NCBI GenBank assembly: GCA_015233895.1
Contig: JADFXG010000017.1
Coordinates: 1 to 61,317, forward strand
Reading direction: 5' to 3'
Length of the DNA: 61,317 bases
Origin: Nitrospirota bacterium
GTDB lineage: Bacteria; Nitrospirota; Thermodesulfovibrionia; Thermodesulfovibrionales; Magnetobacteriaceae
The notes beneath the pieces are model-generated. The model was not told where the DNA came from and ran no database searches. It saw nothing but the letters and a program-made list of their open reading frames with translations. Below, piece by piece: positions 19,823 through 47,882 of this stretch; the first letter of the stretch is position 1, and each line of letters opens with the position of its first letter. A program made the translations under genes and the position numbers.

Positions 19823-19915
19823 GAGGACGTAACAACACATGAAGTCAGGCAGTCACTCTGTGAGGAGCTTTTGACACATGCCAACAAAGTTAAGCGGTTG
19901 AATGGTGCTTGATAT
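19823..19915 (+). repeat. Dispersed intergenic repeat, copy 1
   Basis: The part GAGGAGCTTTTGACA, then ATGCCAACAAAGTTAAGCG and GTGCTTGATATT, matches the 42063-42166 region at most positions and in the same orientation. The 5' half is more diverged. It overlaps the end of the Lgt-like gene on the other strand. Confidence 0.6.
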
Positions 19916-40824: not shown

Positions 40825-41967
40825 TTACCTTATCAATGCAAGCACGTTCTGTGGCGCAGAATTAGCCTGTGCCAGAACAGATATACCGGCCTGTTGCAGA
40901 ATCATGGACTTGGTAAGGTTTGCCGTTTCAGAGGCAAAGTCGGCATCCATTATTCTTGACCGTGCTGCCTGTGTATTCTGTATTATATTGCCTAAGTTGT
41001 TAATAGCCGCATCAAGCTGATTTGACTTAGCTCCCATGTCTGCCTTTGCAGAATTCACAGTGTTTAAAGCCTCGTCAATAACGGCGATAGTGTTTGAAGC
41101 GTTCGATGAGAATGTCACGTGGCCTTGAACATCACGGACTAAATTACCTTGAGCATCGAGTTTAGCAACCTGAAACGCCGCTATCCCGGTGTAAGTGATA
41201 GGGCCGGGCTGCGTTGTAGCTAACGGTGTCGTTGACATAGAAGTACTGTACGTCCAATTTGCCGGAGGCGGTGTTCCATTTCCGTCCATGAACAATTTAT
41301 CTCCTACTGCCATAGTGGTACCGTTTACGACGGCTGTTCCGCTTGTACCGGTACTGGTGTGAATATCTTTTAAATACATGGTCAGCCCATCTTTGAGACC
41401 ATCATTGCTGCCCTTAAATGTTTTGCCGCCTAAGGCATCCGTGTTCAGAGAGGGTATAGAGACACTTATCTGTGCATCGCTTGCTGCATAGCTTGTGTTA
41501 AATTTTGCCGTAACACCAAGGCCTGTCTTTGTGTTAGTGTCATAACTACCGGCAAGCAGCCGCACACCGTTAAATTTGGTCTGCTCAGAGATTCTCCCTA
41601 TCTCCTCTACAAGTGAGTTTGCCTCTTTTTGCATGTAGGCGACATCGGTTGCACCATACTGGCCACTCATTGCTTGCACGCCAAGCTCCCGGATTCTCTG
41701 AAGGTTATTTGTTATCTCATCCATTGCACCCTCAGCAGTTTGAACCATAGAGAGACCGTCGTTTGCGTTTCTTACGCCAACAGTCAACCCTCTTGTTTGA
41801 GAATCCATTCCTGTTGCGATTGCAAGCCCTGCTGCGTCATCTGCCGCTGAGTTTACCCTCAAGCCTGACGATAATCTCGTCATCGCTGTTTGAAGCGGAT
41901 TCTGAGTTTTCCTCAAATTGTTTTGTGCGTTAATTGACATTATGTTTGTGTTTATTACAAATGCCAT
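40825..41967 (-). CDS. fliC: Flagellin, tandem copy 1 (last in reading order)
   Basis: The protein has 380 residues. The N-terminal D0/D1 helices (MAFVINTNIMSINAQNNLRK, then SSGLRVNSAADDAAGLAIAT) and C-terminal D0 (MILQQAGISVLAQANSAPQN) are standard bacterial flagellin. The central 150 residues are the variable, surface-exposed part. It assembles into the flagellar filament after export. AAGGAGG precedes ATG 41967; the 11-residue upstream extension is not used. It is near identical to copies 2 and 3 at both ends, differing mainly around residues 125-180 and 225-250. A leader hairpin with a GGA loop lies upstream. Confidence 0.95.
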   Translation of the reverse strand: MAFVINTNIMSINAQNNLRKTQNPLQTAMTRLSSGLRVNSAADDAAGLAIATGMDSQTRGLTVGVRNANDGLSMVQTAEGAMDEITNNLQRIRELGVQAMSGQYGATDVAYMQKEANSLVEEIGRISEQTKFNGVRLLAGSYDTNTKTGLGVTAKFNTSYAASDAQISVSIPSLNTDALGGKTFKGSNDGLKDGLTMYLKDIHTSTGTSGTAVVNGTTMAVGDKLFMDGNGTPPPANWTYSTSMSTTPLATTQPGPITYTGIAAFQVAKLDAQGNLVRDVQGHVTFSSNASNTIAVIDEALNTVNSAKADMGAKSNQLDAAINNLGNIIQNTQAARSRIMDADFASETANLTKSMILQQAGISVLAQANSAPQNVLALIR

Positions 41968-41991: not shown

Positions 41992-42010
41992 TAATAGCAT
42001 CCGGCTATTA
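41992..42010 (-). promoter_or_regulatory. Leader hairpin with GGA loop, flagellin copy 1
   Basis: On the minus strand TAATAGC-CGGAT-GCTATTA folds into a 7-base-pair stem with a five-base loop CGGAT, about 20 bases before AAGGAGG. GGA shown in a loop is the known recognition element of CsrA/RsmA proteins, which control flagellin translation in some bacteria. The CsrA link is inference. Confidence 0.6.
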
Positions 42011-42062
42011 TTTTAAGTCCGCAGATCTACATACTTTTAATACCGAGTTGTATTCAGAAGCA

Positions 42063-42166
42063 TAACGAGGCGGCGAGGAGCAAGCGACGCAGGCGTACTT
42101 TTTAGTACGTTGAGGAGCTTGCGACAATGCCAACAAAGTTAGGCGATTGAAGGCTACTTGGTATAA
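42063..42166 (+). repeat. Dispersed intergenic repeat, copy 2, with nested stem-loop
   Basis: GCAAGC (42080-42085) pairs with GCTTGC (42117-42122) and, inside it, CGTAC (42094-42098) pairs with GTACG (42105-42109). The 3' half (TGAGGAGCTTGCGACA, then ATGCCAACAAAGTTAGGCG) matches the copy at 19823-19915. It lies between flagellin copies 1 and 2. Confidence 0.65.
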
Positions 42167-42174
42167 GCTCTTTT

Positions 42175-42194
42175 CTACATTTTAGTCACCTCCT
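42175..42194 (-). promoter_or_regulatory. Start-stop mini-ORF with strong ribosome site, upstream of flagellin copy 1
   Basis: On the minus strand AGGAGG (42194-42189) is followed after 8 bases by ATG (42180-42178) directly joined to TAG (42177-42175). A matching unit lies upstream of copy 2. A ribosome loaded here would make no peptide. Confidence 0.4.
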
Positions 42195-42240
42195 GATAAT
42201 GACTATCCCCGCGGCAAAGCCGCAGGGTATCTCAACAACA

Positions 42241-42275
42241 AGAAAAATTCCCCGTGGTAAAAACCACGGAGAATT
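42241..42275 (-). terminator. Rho-independent terminator of flagellin copy 2
   Basis: On the minus strand AATTCTCCGTGG and CCACGGGGAATT form a stem with one mismatch, followed by a T run. A second hairpin (GCGGC-ttt-GCCGC core) lies just beyond at about 42207-42227. Both are 60-130 bases after the copy 2 stop. Confidence 0.7.
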
Positions 42276-42334
42276 GCTAATTTCAAATCATCGGGCATTA
42301 TATCCCACTCATGTTAACCTACTGTTTTCCCATT

Positions 42335-43477
42335 CTACCGTAACAGTGCGAGCACGTTCTGCGGTGACGAGTTGGCCTGTGACAGAACCGATATGCCAGC
42401 CTGTTGCAGAATCATTGACTTGGTAAGGTTTGCCGTCTCAGTAGCAAAGTCGGCATCCATTATTCTTGACCGTGCTGACTGTGTATTCTGTATTATATTG
42501 CCTAAGTTGTTAATAGCAGCATCAAGCTGGTTTGATTTAGCTCCCATGTCTGCTCTTGCAGAATTCACAGTGTTCAAAGCCTCGTCGATAACGGCGATAG
42601 TGTTTGAAGCGTTCGATGTGAAGGTCACATGGCCTTGAACATCGCGGATTAAATTACCCTGAGTATCAAGTTTAGCAACCTGAAACGCCGCTATACCGGT
42701 GTAACTTATAGCGCCAGGTTGTGTTGTAGCTAAGGCTGACGTTGACATAGATGTACTGTATGTCCAGTTTGGCGGAGGCGGTGCTCCAGATTTGCCCATG
42801 AGCAAGGTATCTCCTACTGCCATGGTTTGACCGTTAATGATGGCTGTTCCGCTTGTACCAGTAGTCGTGTGAATGTCTTTTAGATACATGGTCAGACCAT
42901 CTTTGAGCCCATCACTGCTGCCCTTAAATGTCTTGCCGCCTAAGGCATCCGTGTTCAGAGAGGGTACAGCTATACTTATACTTGAATCGCTTGCTGCATA
43001 GCTTGTGTTAAAACTTATCTTTGTCGTAAGGCCTGCCTTCGCAACAGTGTCATAATTACCGGCAAGCAGCCGCACACCATTAAATTTGGTCTGCTCAGAG
43101 ATTCTCCCTATCTCCTCTACAAGTGAGTTTGCCTCTTTTTGCATATAGGCGACATCAGTTGCACCATACTGGCCGCTCATTGCCTGCACGCCAAGCTCCC
43201 GGACTCTCTGAAGGTTATTGGTTATCTCATCCATTGCACCCTGAGCCGTTTGAACCATAGAGAGGCCGTCGTTTGCGTTTCTTACGCCAACTGTCAAACC
43301 TCTTGTTTGTGAGTCCATTCCTGTTGCGATTGCAAGCCCTGCTGCGTCATCTGCCGCTGAGTTTACCCTCAAGCCTGACGATAATCTCGTCATTGCTGTT
43401 TGGAGCGGATTCTGGGTTTTCCTTAAATTGTTTTGTGCGTTAATTGACATTATGTTTGTGTTTATTACAAATGCCAT
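42335..43477 (-). CDS. fliC: Flagellin, tandem copy 2
   Basis: 380 residues with the same conserved D0/D1 ends as copies 1 and 3 (NNLRKTQNPLQTAMTRLSSG; MDADFATETANLTKSMILQQ). The middle is closer to copy 3 than to copy 1 (LAGNYDTVAKAGLTTKISFN; SAPPPPNWTYSTSMSTS-like stretch). AAGGAGG lies just ahead of ATG 43477. Its leader carries the same GGA-loop hairpin, here with loop CGGAC. Tandem copies may boost filament protein output or build filaments of more than one flagellin. Confidence 0.95.
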   Translation of the reverse strand: MAFVINTNIMSINAQNNLRKTQNPLQTAMTRLSSGLRVNSAADDAAGLAIATGMDSQTRGLTVGVRNANDGLSMVQTAQGAMDEITNNLQRVRELGVQAMSGQYGATDVAYMQKEANSLVEEIGRISEQTKFNGVRLLAGNYDTVAKAGLTTKISFNTSYAASDSSISIAVPSLNTDALGGKTFKGSSDGLKDGLTMYLKDIHTTTGTSGTAIINGQTMAVGDTLLMGKSGAPPPPNWTYSTSMSTSALATTQPGAISYTGIAAFQVAKLDTQGNLIRDVQGHVTFTSNASNTIAVIDEALNTVNSARADMGAKSNQLDAAINNLGNIIQNTQSARSRIMDADFATETANLTKSMILQQAGISVLSQANSSPQNVLALLR

Positions 43478-43501
43478 GATAAACCTCCTTGCACATTTTA
43501 T

Positions 43502-43520
43502 TAATAGCGTCCGGCTATTA
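43502..43520 (-). promoter_or_regulatory. Leader hairpin with GGA loop, flagellin copy 2
   Basis: On the minus strand TAATAGC-CGGAC-GCTATTA has the same 7-base-pair stem as copy 1 and a loop that keeps CGGA. It is placed the same distance before AAGGAGG. Confidence 0.6.
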
Positions 43521-43566
43521 TTTTAGTTATCTAAAACTCGTACATCCAACTACCGGTAACCTTTTT

Positions 43567-43585
43567 CTACACTTCACCACCTCCT
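43567..43585 (-). promoter_or_regulatory. Start-stop mini-ORF with strong ribosome site, upstream of flagellin copy 2
   Basis: On the minus strand AGGAGG (43585-43580) is followed after 7 bases by GTG (43572-43570) joined to TAG (43569-43567). It corresponds to the unit at 42175-42194; the flanks ATCAGGAGGTG and TGTAGAAAA are shared. Confidence 0.4.
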
Positions 43586-43655
43586 GATATTTCAGTTTTT
43601 CAAACTATTGGGAATTAAATCCCACTCCTGTTAACCTCCGTGTTACCATATTTTT

Positions 43656-44798
43656 TTATTTCAACAGTGAAAGCACGTTCTGCGGAGACGAATTGGCCTG
43701 TGACAGAACCGATATACCGGCCTGTTGCAGAATCATGGACTTGGTAAGGTTTGCCGTCTCAGTAGCAAAGTCGGCATCCATTATTCTTGACCGTGCTGAC
43801 TGTGTATTCTGTATTATATTGCCTAAGTTATTAATAGCAGCCTCTAACTGATTTGCTTTAGCTCCCATATCTGCCTTTGCAGAATTCACAGTGTTCAAAG
43901 CCTCGTCAATAACAGCTACAGTGTTTGAAGCGTTCGATGTGAAGGTCACATGGCCTTGAACATCGCGGACTAAATTACCCTGAGTATCGAGTTTAGCAAC
44001 CTGAAACGCTGCTATACCGGTGTAACTGATAGCGCCTGGCTGCGTTGTAGCTAACGCTGATGTTGACATAGATGTACTGTATGTCCAGTTTGGCGGAGGC
44101 GGTGCTCCAGCTGTACCCATAAGCAAGGTGTCTCCTACTGCCATGGTTTGACCGTTAACGATAGCTATTCCGCTTGTACCAGTAGTAGTGTGAATGTCTT
44201 TTAAATACATGGTCAGCCCATCTTTGAGCCCATCACTGCTGGCCTTAAATGTTTTGCCGCCTAAGGCATCCGTGTTCAGAGAAGGTACCGCTATGCTTAT
44301 ACTTGAGTCGCTTGCTGAATAGCTTGTGTTAAACTTTATCTTTGTGGTAATGCCTGACTTCGCAACAGTGTCATAATTACCAGCAAGCAGCCGCACACCG
44401 TTAAATTTGGTCTGCTCGGAGATTCTCCCTATCTCCTCTACAAGTGAGTTTGCCTCTTTTTGCATGTAGGCGACATCGGTTGCACCGTACTGGCCACTCA
44501 TTGCCTGCACGCCAAGCTCCCGGACTCTCTGAAGGTTATTTGTTATTTCATCCATTGCGCCCTCAGCCGTTTGAACCATAGAGAGACCGTCGTTTGCGTT
44601 TCTTACGCCAACTGTCAAACCTCTTGTTTGTGAGTCCATGCCTGTTGCGATTGCAAGCCCTGCTGCGTCATCTGCCGCTGAGTTTACCCTCAAGCCTGAT
44701 GATAATCTCGTCATTGCTGTTTGAAGGGGATTCTGGGTTTTCCTTAGATTGTTTTGTGCACTGATAGACATTATGTTTGTGTTTATTACAAAAGCCAT
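43656..44798 (-). CDS. fliC: Flagellin, tandem copy 3 (first in reading order)
   Basis: 380 residues. Its N-terminus, MAFVINTNIMSISAQNNLRK, differs from the others by Ser for Asn in SISAQ, and the C-terminus ends NVLSLLK. It shares most central residues with copy 2. GGAGG lies upstream of ATG 44798. It is the first full flagellin after the leader ORF and the candidate promoter at 45096-45110. No clear terminator is seen between it and copy 2, so some read-through is likely. Confidence 0.95.
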   Translation of the reverse strand: MAFVINTNIMSISAQNNLRKTQNPLQTAMTRLSSGLRVNSAADDAAGLAIATGMDSQTRGLTVGVRNANDGLSMVQTAEGAMDEITNNLQRVRELGVQAMSGQYGATDVAYMQKEANSLVEEIGRISEQTKFNGVRLLAGNYDTVAKSGITTKIKFNTSYSASDSSISIAVPSLNTDALGGKTFKASSDGLKDGLTMYLKDIHTTTGTSGIAIVNGQTMAVGDTLLMGTAGAPPPPNWTYSTSMSTSALATTQPGAISYTGIAAFQVAKLDTQGNLVRDVQGHVTFTSNASNTVAVIDEALNTVNSAKADMGAKANQLEAAINNLGNIIQNTQSARSRIMDADFATETANLTKSMILQQAGISVLSQANSSPQNVLSLLK

Positions 44799-44826
44799 GA
44801 TAAACCTCCGTGTGTCTCATATTAGT

Positions 44827-44847
44827 CTAATAGCATCCGGCTATTAG
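44827..44847 (-). promoter_or_regulatory. Leader hairpin with GGA loop, flagellin copy 3
   Basis: On the minus strand CTAATAGC-CGGAT-GCTATTAG gives an 8-base-pair stem, one pair longer than in copies 1 and 2, with the same loop CGGAT. It lies close upstream of the GGAGG ribosome site. Confidence 0.6.
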
Positions 44848-44898
44848 TTTACAAACAAACTAATTCAAACATTTTCTGAAACAGTTACGCCGCTATCG

Positions 44899-44927
44899 CT
44901 TAATTTATTAATCATTAATAAATTAAG
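44899..44927. repeat. Perfect 14-bp AT-rich palindrome between leader ORF and flagellin copy 3
   Basis: CTTAATTTATTAAT and ATTAATAAATTAAG are exact reverse complements separated by one C. The site is 13 bases beyond the leader-ORF stop codon. It could be an operator for a dimeric DNA-binding protein or a hairpin acting as an attenuator. Confidence 0.55.
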
Positions 44928-44940
44928 GCAACATCAAGTG

Positions 44941-45003
44941 TTATGTATCGTTTATGGTTTTGGGTAGAGGAGTTATTCTTTTTGCTGCAGTTAGTAAAGT
45001 CAT
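44941..45003 (-). CDS. Candidate 20-residue flagellin leader peptide
   Basis: The short frame reads MTLLTAAKRITPLPKTINDT and is preceded by ACAAGGAGGTTGAC, a ribosome site as good as those of the flagellins. It has its own upstream GGA-loop hairpin (45033-45049), like each flagellin gene. It does not match the flagellin N-terminus, so it is not simply a truncated copy. It contains two prolines close together (TPLP). It might be a leader peptide whose translation affects the palindrome downstream. Translation is not proven. Confidence 0.45.
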   Translation of the reverse strand: MTLLTAAKRITPLPKTINDT

Positions 45004-45032
45004 GTCAACCTCCTTGTAATGTTACAATTTCT

Positions 45033-45049
45033 GACAGCATCCGGCTGCC
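45033..45049 (-). promoter_or_regulatory. Leader hairpin with GGA loop, ahead of the leader ORF
   Basis: On the minus strand GGCAGC-CGGAT-GCTGTC folds like the flagellin hairpins. The stem bases differ from AATAGC/GCTATT but keep pairing (one G-U), while the loop CGGAT is unchanged. Compensatory change in the stem is good evidence that the RNA structure is under selection. Confidence 0.65.
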
Positions 45050-45110: not shown

Positions 45111-45307
45111 TTACAATATCTCACACTGCTCTTACGTACGCCTTACTACTTATTACCTTCTTGCAGCCTCTTTGCTGCTCTTAGTCAACTTATCGGCAGT
45201 ATTTTATAAAAACTTAATACTGTGTGAAAAAACTGTTTCAAAACTACTATAATACTTACCGATGGTTCTGAGTATTGTTGATAACTTAAGCTTAGGAGGA
45301 CGGCGGC

Positions 45308-46702: not shown

Positions 46703-46860
46703 AATACAAGGCAGATATTTTTTATTGTATAGAAGAGCTTTTATTCTACAGAGTAAAGCTATATACCATTACAATTCTAATTTAAAATGGGTAAAATATT
46801 ATTATTTACTTTTATGCCAATTTGTTTTAACATATATAATGCTAAGCGAGGTGGTTGATA

Positions 46861-47433
46861 ATGACAAATACAACTACTGTAATTGAAGCAGTGTTTTATC
46901 TGTTGAGTAAGCTTGGACCTTCAGATAAATTGAAACTGATTAAGTTAATTTACCTTGCCGATAAATTCCATCTTATTCGTTATGGCCGCACTGTTACCAG
47001 AGATAAGTACTTAGCTATGGAGCACGGGCCAGTGGGCTCTGTAGTTAAAGATGTTTTGAGTTTTAATTCCAAAAGCCTTTCTGCTAGTGAGCTTAGATGT
47101 GCTTGTGCATTGTTTGAGGAAACTGACACTTACACCTTTAAAGCCAAACAATCTGCCACTGAACGCGATTTTGACATGTTATCTGAAAGTGATATAGAAT
47201 CTTTTGACTTTGTGATTAATCAATTTGGACGTATGACGCAGTGGGAGCTTAGAGATTATACGCATAAATACCCTGAGTGGTATCAACACGAACAGTTATT
47301 AAAAGCTGGGCAAAGCAGAAGTGAACCTATAAACACAAAGGAGTTGCTGTCTTTACTTGATAATGACCCTCTAACTATGCCGATGGAACATCTGACAGAA
47401 TCTGGGAAAATACTTACCGGAAATTATGATTAA
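46861..47433 (+). CDS. Panacea-domain (SocA/DUF4065-like) protein, candidate antitoxin
   Basis: 190 residues. The N-terminal motif LSKLGPSDKLKLIKLIYLAD followed by HLIRYGRTVTRDKYLAMEHG and GPVGSVV is the classic Panacea/DUF4065 signature (SocA, GepA). Panacea proteins serve as antitoxins to many unrelated toxins or as ClpXP adaptors. ATG 46861 follows GAGGTGG at suitable spacing; a TATAAT box lies at 46835-46840. The next gene begins 2 bases after its stop, as expected for an antitoxin-toxin pair. Antitoxin function is inferred from domain and gene order. Confidence 0.8.
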   Translation: MTNTTTVIEAVFYLLSKLGPSDKLKLIKLIYLADKFHLIRYGRTVTRDKYLAMEHGPVGSVVKDVLSFNSKSLSASELRCACALFEETDTYTFKAKQSATERDFDMLSESDIESFDFVINQFGRMTQWELRDYTHKYPEWYQHEQLLKAGQSRSEPINTKELLSLLDNDPLTMPMEHLTESGKILTGNYD

Positions 47434-47435
47434 GC

Positions 47436-47882
47436 GTGGAATTACCGGCAGAGCTAATAATTGAATATCTTTCAGACTTTTGTATATGTCATTTTAAAGA
47501 CTGTAAACACGACCCTGAAGCACCAGCGCACTACTATGTAAATGTGCCAATAACTGATACTTCAAGTTTGCTGTTATGTATAATAACATCGCAAGTAAAT
47601 AGCAGACAAAATTATTATTACAGGTTAAATCCAAAAGCAGCTGATAGCCTTGTTAGCATAAAAAAACAAGATCTGCCATTTACTTTAAAAGACTGCGTTG
47701 TTGATTGTAATAGCGCAGAGCTGATTAAAAAAGCAGAACTGCTTAACAGGATTAATCCTGATATTGGCTTTGATATTAAAGAAAGGGAAATTCCTTCGTT
47801 TCTAAGAAATGCAATAAAACAATCTGTAATAAACAGCCCACTCATTTCTAAATATATTAAAAAAATGCTGGAACAAATTTAA
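47436..47882 (+). CDS. Candidate toxin, possibly PemK/MazF-like
   Basis: 148 residues, starting GTG directly behind the Panacea gene. The pattern HYYVNVPITDTSSLLLCIIT, then KKQDLPFTLKDCVVDCNSAE, resembles the SH3-like barrel of PemK/MazF-type or related small toxins: opening His/Tyr strand, hydrophobic strand ending in Thr, and a late basic/Ser/Val strand. The similarity is weak and no catalytic residue set is certain. Five cysteines are present. It could instead be an uncharacterised small accessory protein. Gene order supports toxin over other options. Confidence 0.5.
   Translation: MELPAELIIEYLSDFCICHFKDCKHDPEAPAHYYVNVPITDTSSLLLCIITSQVNSRQNYYYRLNPKAADSLVSIKKQDLPFTLKDCVVDCNSAELIKKAELLNRINPDIGFDIKEREIPSFLRNAIKQSVINSPLISKYIKKMLEQI

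Follow-up and report, generated by a model that had tools for sequence, protein, structure and literature searches.

Predicted two-site CsrA operators ahead of flagellin genes and mini-ORFs in a Nitrospirota genome and its relatives

The window analysed here, a stretch of 61,317 nucleotides that is contig C17 of a 3.7-Mb Nitrospirota genome (G000), carries on its minus strand a 20-codon leader open reading frame (ORF) followed by three flagellin genes of 380 aa, and ahead of each of the four lies a small hairpin with GGA in its loop. We consider it very probable, from the sequence comparisons set out below, that hairpin and ribosome site together form a two-site operator for CsrA in the flagellin mRNA leader. 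The organism is related to the magnetic Nitrospirota. A window flagellin is 97% identical to one in the metagenome-assembled genome Nitrospirae nDJH6bin1, and the next-best matches include flagellins of Candidatus (Ca.) Magnetominusculus and Ca. Magnetocorallium. The three window flagellins are recent paralogues. In transcription order, the genes, hairpins and ribosome sites are as follows.

45033..45049, minus strand: GGA-loop hairpin of the leader mini-ORF (predicted CsrA site 1), ggcagc-CGGAT-gctgtc; 39.4 bits with covariance model R1
45001..45017, minus strand: ACAAGGAGGTTGAC-ATG, ribosome site of the leader mini-ORF, doubling as the CANGGAGG CsrA motif (predicted site 2)
44941..45003, minus strand: leader mini-ORF MTLLTAAKRITPLPKTINDT, 20 codons plus stop; peptide poorly conserved (MTLITAATIIILHHKLINDT in the relative G002)
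44827..44847, minus strand: GGA-loop hairpin of flagellin copy 3, ctaatagc-CGGAT-gctattag; R1 51.9 bits
44796..44813, minus strand: ACACGGAGGTTTATC-ATG, ribosome site and CsrA motif of copy 3
43656..44798, minus strand: flagellin copy 3, ORF of 380 aa, first flagellin in transcription order; Flagellin_N match
43502..43520, minus strand: GGA-loop hairpin of flagellin copy 2, taatagc-CGGAC-gctatta; R1 48.1 bits
43475..43492, minus strand: GCAAGGAGGTTTATC-ATG, ribosome site and CsrA motif of copy 2
42335..43477, minus strand: flagellin copy 2, ORF of 380 aa
41992..42010, minus strand: GGA-loop hairpin of flagellin copy 1, taatagc-CGGAT-gctatta; R1 49.9 bits
41965..41982, minus strand: GCAAGGAGGTTTATC-ATG, ribosome site and CsrA motif of copy 1
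40825..41967, minus strand: flagellin copy 1, ORF of 380 aa; Pfam Flagellin_N and Flagellin_C

All four hairpins, with the stems that the original prediction had described for them, are present on the minus strand. The leader-ORF stem has 6 bp, one of them G-U. Model R1, which comprises hairpin, spacer, ribosome site and start and was built partly from the three window flagellin copies with the leader-ORF copy left out, has exactly four matches in the window (39-52 bits, E = 3e-13 to 1e-9); the next best scores 12.6 bits (E = 0.065). Since the flagellin copies are recent paralogues, only the leader-ORF hairpin is a near-independent example within the window. The main evidence for the compensatory stem change that had been proposed comes from related genomes and not from the window.

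We collected 92 flagellin leaders from relatives within one order, 83 of which remained after removal of near-duplicates. A GGA-loop hairpin occurs in 44 of these 83 (mean 2.5, maximum 6 in 100 dinucleotide shuffles), and no other loop triplet comes close to GGA, the runner-up being found in 15 leaders. When the best stem was picked blind to the sequence of its loop, 39 of 68 loops contained GGA, where about 3 were expected. In a set of 36 distinct pentaloop hairpins, seven of eight pairs change on both sides in at least one sequence, with 57 such cells against 20.7 after shuffling and a covariation score of 0.506 against 0.184, figures that are inflated because this set was preselected for pairing; the loop-blind test is free of that bias. 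More distant families use other stems (GGGC, AGGC, GGATGC, GGACGC, CGGC) and keep the GGA, several of their loops being the exact textbook hexaloop CANGGANG (for example GGCACGGAAGCC and GGCAAGGATGCC), and in each of the 16 flagellated genera sampled one leader or more combines the hairpin with CANGGAGG. Related genomes thus keep the hairpin, its loop GGA and a co-varying stem.

A second GGA, in the ribosome site, had been read as completing the double-site layout of a CsrA target, and the comparison with other genes supports this. The Shine-Dalgarno reads CANGGAGG in all 48 hairpin-bearing leaders that have GGAGG, and in only 5 of 157 other genes from the source genome and eight relatives; hairpin and CANGGAGG occur jointly in 47 of 92 flagellins versus none of 408 other genes, the background genes being drawn from 400 kb of G000, the window and 400 kb of relatives. 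In flagellins with CANGGAGG the base before GGA varies (T 29, A 22, C 11, G 3), and the CA two and three bases ahead of GGA is fixed. Because the base before GGA is free, even though an A there would aid pairing with the ribosome, while the CA is fixed, the constraint appears to be that of CsrA rather than of the ribosome: judged from the sequences, the fixed CA fits what CsrA demands and would not be needed for ribosome binding alone. The reported CsrA motif is CANGGANG (PMC4894983), and the consensus from systematic evolution of ligands by exponential enrichment (SELEX) is RUACARGGAUGU (PMC7652899).

The operator model is also specific at the scale of genomes. Within the family, R1 finds the flagellin leaders and a group of mini-ORFs described below; across fifteen flagellated genomes of other families, every match above 33 bits is a flagellin leader, and seven flagellin-less genomes give nothing above ~24 bits. 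Matches below ~27 bits, which mostly stand ahead of unrelated genes or lack the GGA hairpin, were not counted. A wider phylum sample of 118 genomes gave no strong match outside the order, which is not evidence of absence, as the flagellins there were not examined directly. The short pattern AGCCGGAYGCT was discarded as unspecific, 7 of its 11 genome matches having no surrounding flagellin leader, and the hairpin-plus-ribosome-site model was therefore needed.

Both csrA and fliW, which the original prediction had named as genes to look for, are present in the genome, on contig C3 in the order flgL-csrA-fliW. The 74-aa csrA product matches two entries, 1y00 (E. coli CsrA) and the CsrA chain of 5dmb, where FliW is present too. 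Its conserved L4 and R44 are what we take to be the RNA-binding residues of CsrA. True flagellins are found in 34 of 60 genomes, fliW in all 34 of these and in none of the 26 others, and csrA in 33 of the 34 (the exception is a genome 56% complete) and in one of the 26. This strict co-occurrence suggests that CsrA is dedicated to flagella in these Nitrospirota. A second fliW lies away from csrA at G000:C2:113341-113682; two fliW genes are common in the family, possibly one for each flagellin class.

By analogy with the hag and flaA systems discussed at the end, one CsrA dimer would span site 1, the loop GGA, and site 2, the CANGGAGG ribosome site that lies 20-37 nt further downstream. Bound at site 2, CsrA would overlap the Shine-Dalgarno and block the 30S subunit, so that flagellin translation would be repressed. 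FliW, encoded directly after csrA, would relieve repression by removing CsrA, and unsecreted flagellin would compete for FliW, which would place flagellin synthesis under feedback.

Several observations weigh against this interpretation. With a median of 29.5 nt and most values between 20 and 37 nt, the hairpin-to-ribosome-site spacing exceeds the 18-21 nt that is reported as the optimum or found in Campylobacter (PMC4894983), and the loop in the window genus is a pentaloop (NGGAN) and not the textbook hexaloop. The loop sequence had been described as always CGGA[TC], which is correct for the four window copies; elsewhere GGA is not strictly invariant, since three Ca. Magnetocorallium flagellin paralogues keep the stem with the GGA-less loops AAGAT, TAAAA and ATGAA. 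Among the collected leaders, those of the flagellin classes MAGFTINTN and GTG-start VAFVLNTN have no hairpin. In two flagellins on contig C37, ATCTA-AGGA-TAGAT precedes a GGGGGTGGA site, and one on contig C2 has ACAAGGATGT, which is near the SELEX consensus and for which no stable fold is predicted; the C37 and C2 loci have, by eye, sigma54-like promoters. Related leaders within a genus are non-independent, so raw P values overstate the case, and we found neither binding nor expression data for any CsrA from this phylum.

The GGA-less paralogues speak for an alternative in which the hairpin sets mRNA stability or translation efficiency by its structure alone, as a 5' protective element or ribosome standby site, without CsrA. 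Such a role would also agree with the fact that the hairpin does not sequester the ribosome site, and the unused upstream Shine-Dalgarno sequences described below suggest that 5' stability matters for flagellin mRNAs. We nevertheless regard it as improbable: structure alone leaves unexplained both the enrichment of GGA in the loop and the occurrence of CANGGAGG in 48 of 48 leaders when the base before GGA is free to vary. Although 5' leader hairpins are often attenuators or riboswitches, and cyclic di-GMP riboswitches sit on flagellar genes of other bacteria, a transcription signal (attenuator or terminator, riboswitch aptamer or promoter element) is very improbable here, as the stems have no T-run after them, an Rfam scan of the window gives only a tRNA and no riboswitch family, the sigma28 promoters of relatives lie well upstream of the hairpin, and the freedom of the stem sequence with pairing kept points to an element acting as RNA.

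CsrA control of flagellin, as originally predicted, is therefore supported, yet that prediction was incomplete: it missed the CANGGAGG motif, the spread of the operator across the order, an additional Shine-Dalgarno that no gene uses, and the other mini-ORFs. These and the remaining transcription features of the window are the following.

45190..45217, minus strand: predicted sigma28 promoter TTAAGTTT-N12-GCCGATAA, from sequence, ahead of the leader ORF and flagellin cluster
44899..44927, minus strand: AT-rich perfect inverted repeat 3' of the leader mini-ORF, kept in the genus
43567..43587, minus strand: unused Shine-Dalgarno with start-stop, TCAGGAGGTGGTGAA-GTG-TAG; also in G001, G002 and G003
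42175..42196, minus strand: unused Shine-Dalgarno with start-stop, TCAGGAGGTGACTAAA-ATG-TAG; G003 has ATG-TAA

The clearest cases of an unused Shine-Dalgarno lie downstream of sigma28 promoters in the relatives. Of 38 leaders that have a good sigma28 promoter, 10 contain a match of at least 10/11 to AAAGGAGGTGA (against 0.25 leaders in shuffles), placed 23-58 nt downstream of the -10 element; found unprompted, AAGGAGG is the commonest 7-mer in the stretches that follow the sigma28 -10. By inspection, most of these sites have no start codon at a usable distance. They lack the CA of the CsrA motif, and the two Shine-Dalgarnos of one leader therefore seem differently constrained. Those in the window match at only 8-9/11, have their start joined to a stop, and have no identified promoter nearby. 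RNase J is encoded in the genome (610 bits, above the curated cut-off). We propose, by analogy, that the unused Shine-Dalgarno may stabilise the mRNA 5' end in the manner of STAB-SD.

Transcription of the cluster probably starts at the sigma28 promoter at 45190-45217, which is kept in relatives (11/12 consensus match at the orthologous G001 locus, identical in G003). The inverted repeat at 44899..44927 has no T-run and is thus not a clear terminator. After flagellin copy 2 there are two GC-rich hairpins (window 42206-42272), and the minus-strand CCGTGGTTTTTACCACGGGGAATTTTTC resembles an intrinsic terminator; copy 1 may therefore need its own promoter, and none was found. In the copy 1 leader, a dispersed repeat of ~130 bp (window 42039-42164, minus strand) separates the start-stop Shine-Dalgarno from the hairpin, with similar copies elsewhere in the genome (L217, L223, L230), a partial one at window 19861-19915, and others in G003 (L267) and G002 (L135); the G003 ortholog of the copy 1 leader is without it. 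Directly past the stop of copy 3, AACACGGAGGTTAACAGG (window 43627-43645, minus strand) contains an extra CANGGAGG without a start codon (R1 12.6 bits). In the relative G007, locus L148 (G007:C33:46800-64200) has tandem flagellin genes of ~600 aa; several of them have a GGA hairpin and, a long way upstream, AAAGGAGGTG. Away from the flagellin cluster, window 46855-47433 (plus strand) encodes a SocA/Panacea-domain protein (Pfam PF13274), a possible antitoxin, and the ORF downstream of it (47436-47882) has no Pfam match.

The operator ahead of the 20-codon leader ORF raises the question of what the short ORF is for. Between G000 and G002, 45 of 50 nt of the operator are kept and 44 of 57 nt of the ORF, where the changes mostly alter the amino acid (by inspection). 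Because the operator is kept while the peptide diverges, the few species available favour an RNA role over a peptide role. Non-flagellin R1 matches of at least ~27 bits, followed up in three g1 species, Ca. Magnetocorallium (G009) and G007, precede short ORFs. In G000, G001 and G003, an ORF of 25-29 codons with a flagellin-like start (MDLIIDTMITYLNVQRG) stops three bases before flaG of flaG-fliD-fliS, genes that we named from sequence and gene order; the G000 example (L265, G000:C3:215468-215531, minus strand) is a reduced flagellin of 29 codons that retains the CsrA-type operator. At the corresponding place G002 has a full flagellin of 336 aa with a related sigma28 promoter and leader. Judged from these sequences, a flagellin ahead of flaG seems to have lost all but the operator and the first few codons, and flaG is plausibly coupled to what is left of the gene.

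Ca. Magnetocorallium has about seven ORFs of 21-35 codons with the operator. Most have a sigma28-like -10 upstream (CCGATAT or similar), several are then followed by terminator-like hairpins, and one lies immediately ahead of a flagellin, the arrangement seen in the window. One repeated family accounts for four to five of the ORFs, so some copies may be mere duplicates. The repeat unit of ~400 bp (L289-L293) contains the sigma28-like -10, the GGA hairpin, the mini-ORF, conserved CCTGTTACCCT stretches and a GCGGGAG...CTCCCGC terminator-like hairpin; by eye, CTGTTACC..TTTTTGTAA in this unit appears complementary to its own ribosome site. G007 has a similar 26-codon ORF after a GGA hairpin and ACATGGAGG, with CCGATAAG upstream (L278, by eye).

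Most likely, though less firmly than for the flagellin operator itself, the mini-ORF operators either place a downstream operon such as flaG-fliD-fliS under CsrA control by translational coupling or add decoy capacity for CsrA on sigma28 transcripts. A more ambitious version, which we put forward tentatively and would not yet bet on, is that in Nitrospirota of this family flagellin-leader mimics form a dedicated layer of CsrA control, in which sigma28 transcripts consisting of the operator and a throw-away ORF of 20-35 codons would act as decoys or coupling switches timed by sigma28, whether free-standing (Magnetocorallium), heading a flagellin mRNA (window) or heading flaG-fliD-fliS. For the leader mini-ORF, it is also conceivable, if rather doubtful, that the ORF is a functional micropeptide or a dying flagellin remnant whose CsrA leader has no role. 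Remnants do arise, as the flagellin that is full in G002 and shrunken in G000, G001 and G003 illustrates, and the shrunken flaG-adjacent peptide still resembles a flagellin N-terminus. Against a micropeptide or remnant, the window leader-ORF peptide diverges while its leader is kept, and the Magnetocorallium peptides vary in length as well as in sequence, whereas their hairpin and CANGGAGG persist. We rejected the classification of the Magnetocorallium mini-ORF transcripts as CsrB-like sponge RNAs, that class being noncoding with many GGA hairpins, whereas here there are ~2 sites and a short ORF with a ribosome site.

Flagellin leaders under CsrA control are already known as a class; what is new here is the unused Shine-Dalgarno together with the mini-ORFs. 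A 2015 survey only proposed CsrA-FliW control of flagellin in Nitrospirota, from the presence of fliW (PMC4682653), and sequence evidence at the RNA level now extends to this phylum, its magnetotactic lineages included. The mini-ORFs and the reduction of a flagellin to its operator suggest how new CsrA-controlled transcripts may originate, with the target gene decaying and the operator staying, and the unused Shine-Dalgarno after sigma28 promoters makes mRNA stabilisation a testable claim outside Bacillota.

The hag leader of B. subtilis, with its CsrA-FliW-Hag partner switch (Yakhnin 2007; Mukherjee 2011; reviewed in PMC7652899), shares with the present leaders two CsrA sites (here predicted), one overlapping the Shine-Dalgarno, and adjacent csrA and fliW. 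Unlike hag, the Nitrospirota loci have tandem flagellins and mini-ORFs each with its own operator, a pentaloop in the genus, and an unused 5' Shine-Dalgarno or start-stop upstream. C. jejuni flaA likewise has a GGA hairpin, a GGA at the ribosome site, covariation among relatives and FliW as antagonist, and its leader can titrate CsrA (PMC4894983). Its 45-nt leader carries both GGAs in hexaloops 21 nt apart, whereas the leaders predicted here are frequently longer than 100 nt, CANGGAGG stands at predicted site 2 with no hairpin demonstrated around it, and the operator is also present on separate transcripts that hold mini-ORFs. Like the CsrB and RsmZ sponges, those transcripts could bind CsrA away from its targets; unlike them, they hold only ~2 GGA sites each, include a mini-ORF with its ribosome site and have a sigma28-like promoter. 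Finally, the STAB-SD of Bacillus thuringiensis cry mRNAs, which protects the mRNA 5' end (reviewed in PMC4113751), resembles the unused Shine-Dalgarno in being a strong Shine-Dalgarno near the 5' end without a start codon, in a genome that here also encodes RNase J; it differs in that the element proposed here belongs to flagellin mRNAs of another phylum and is joined with a predicted CsrA operator.

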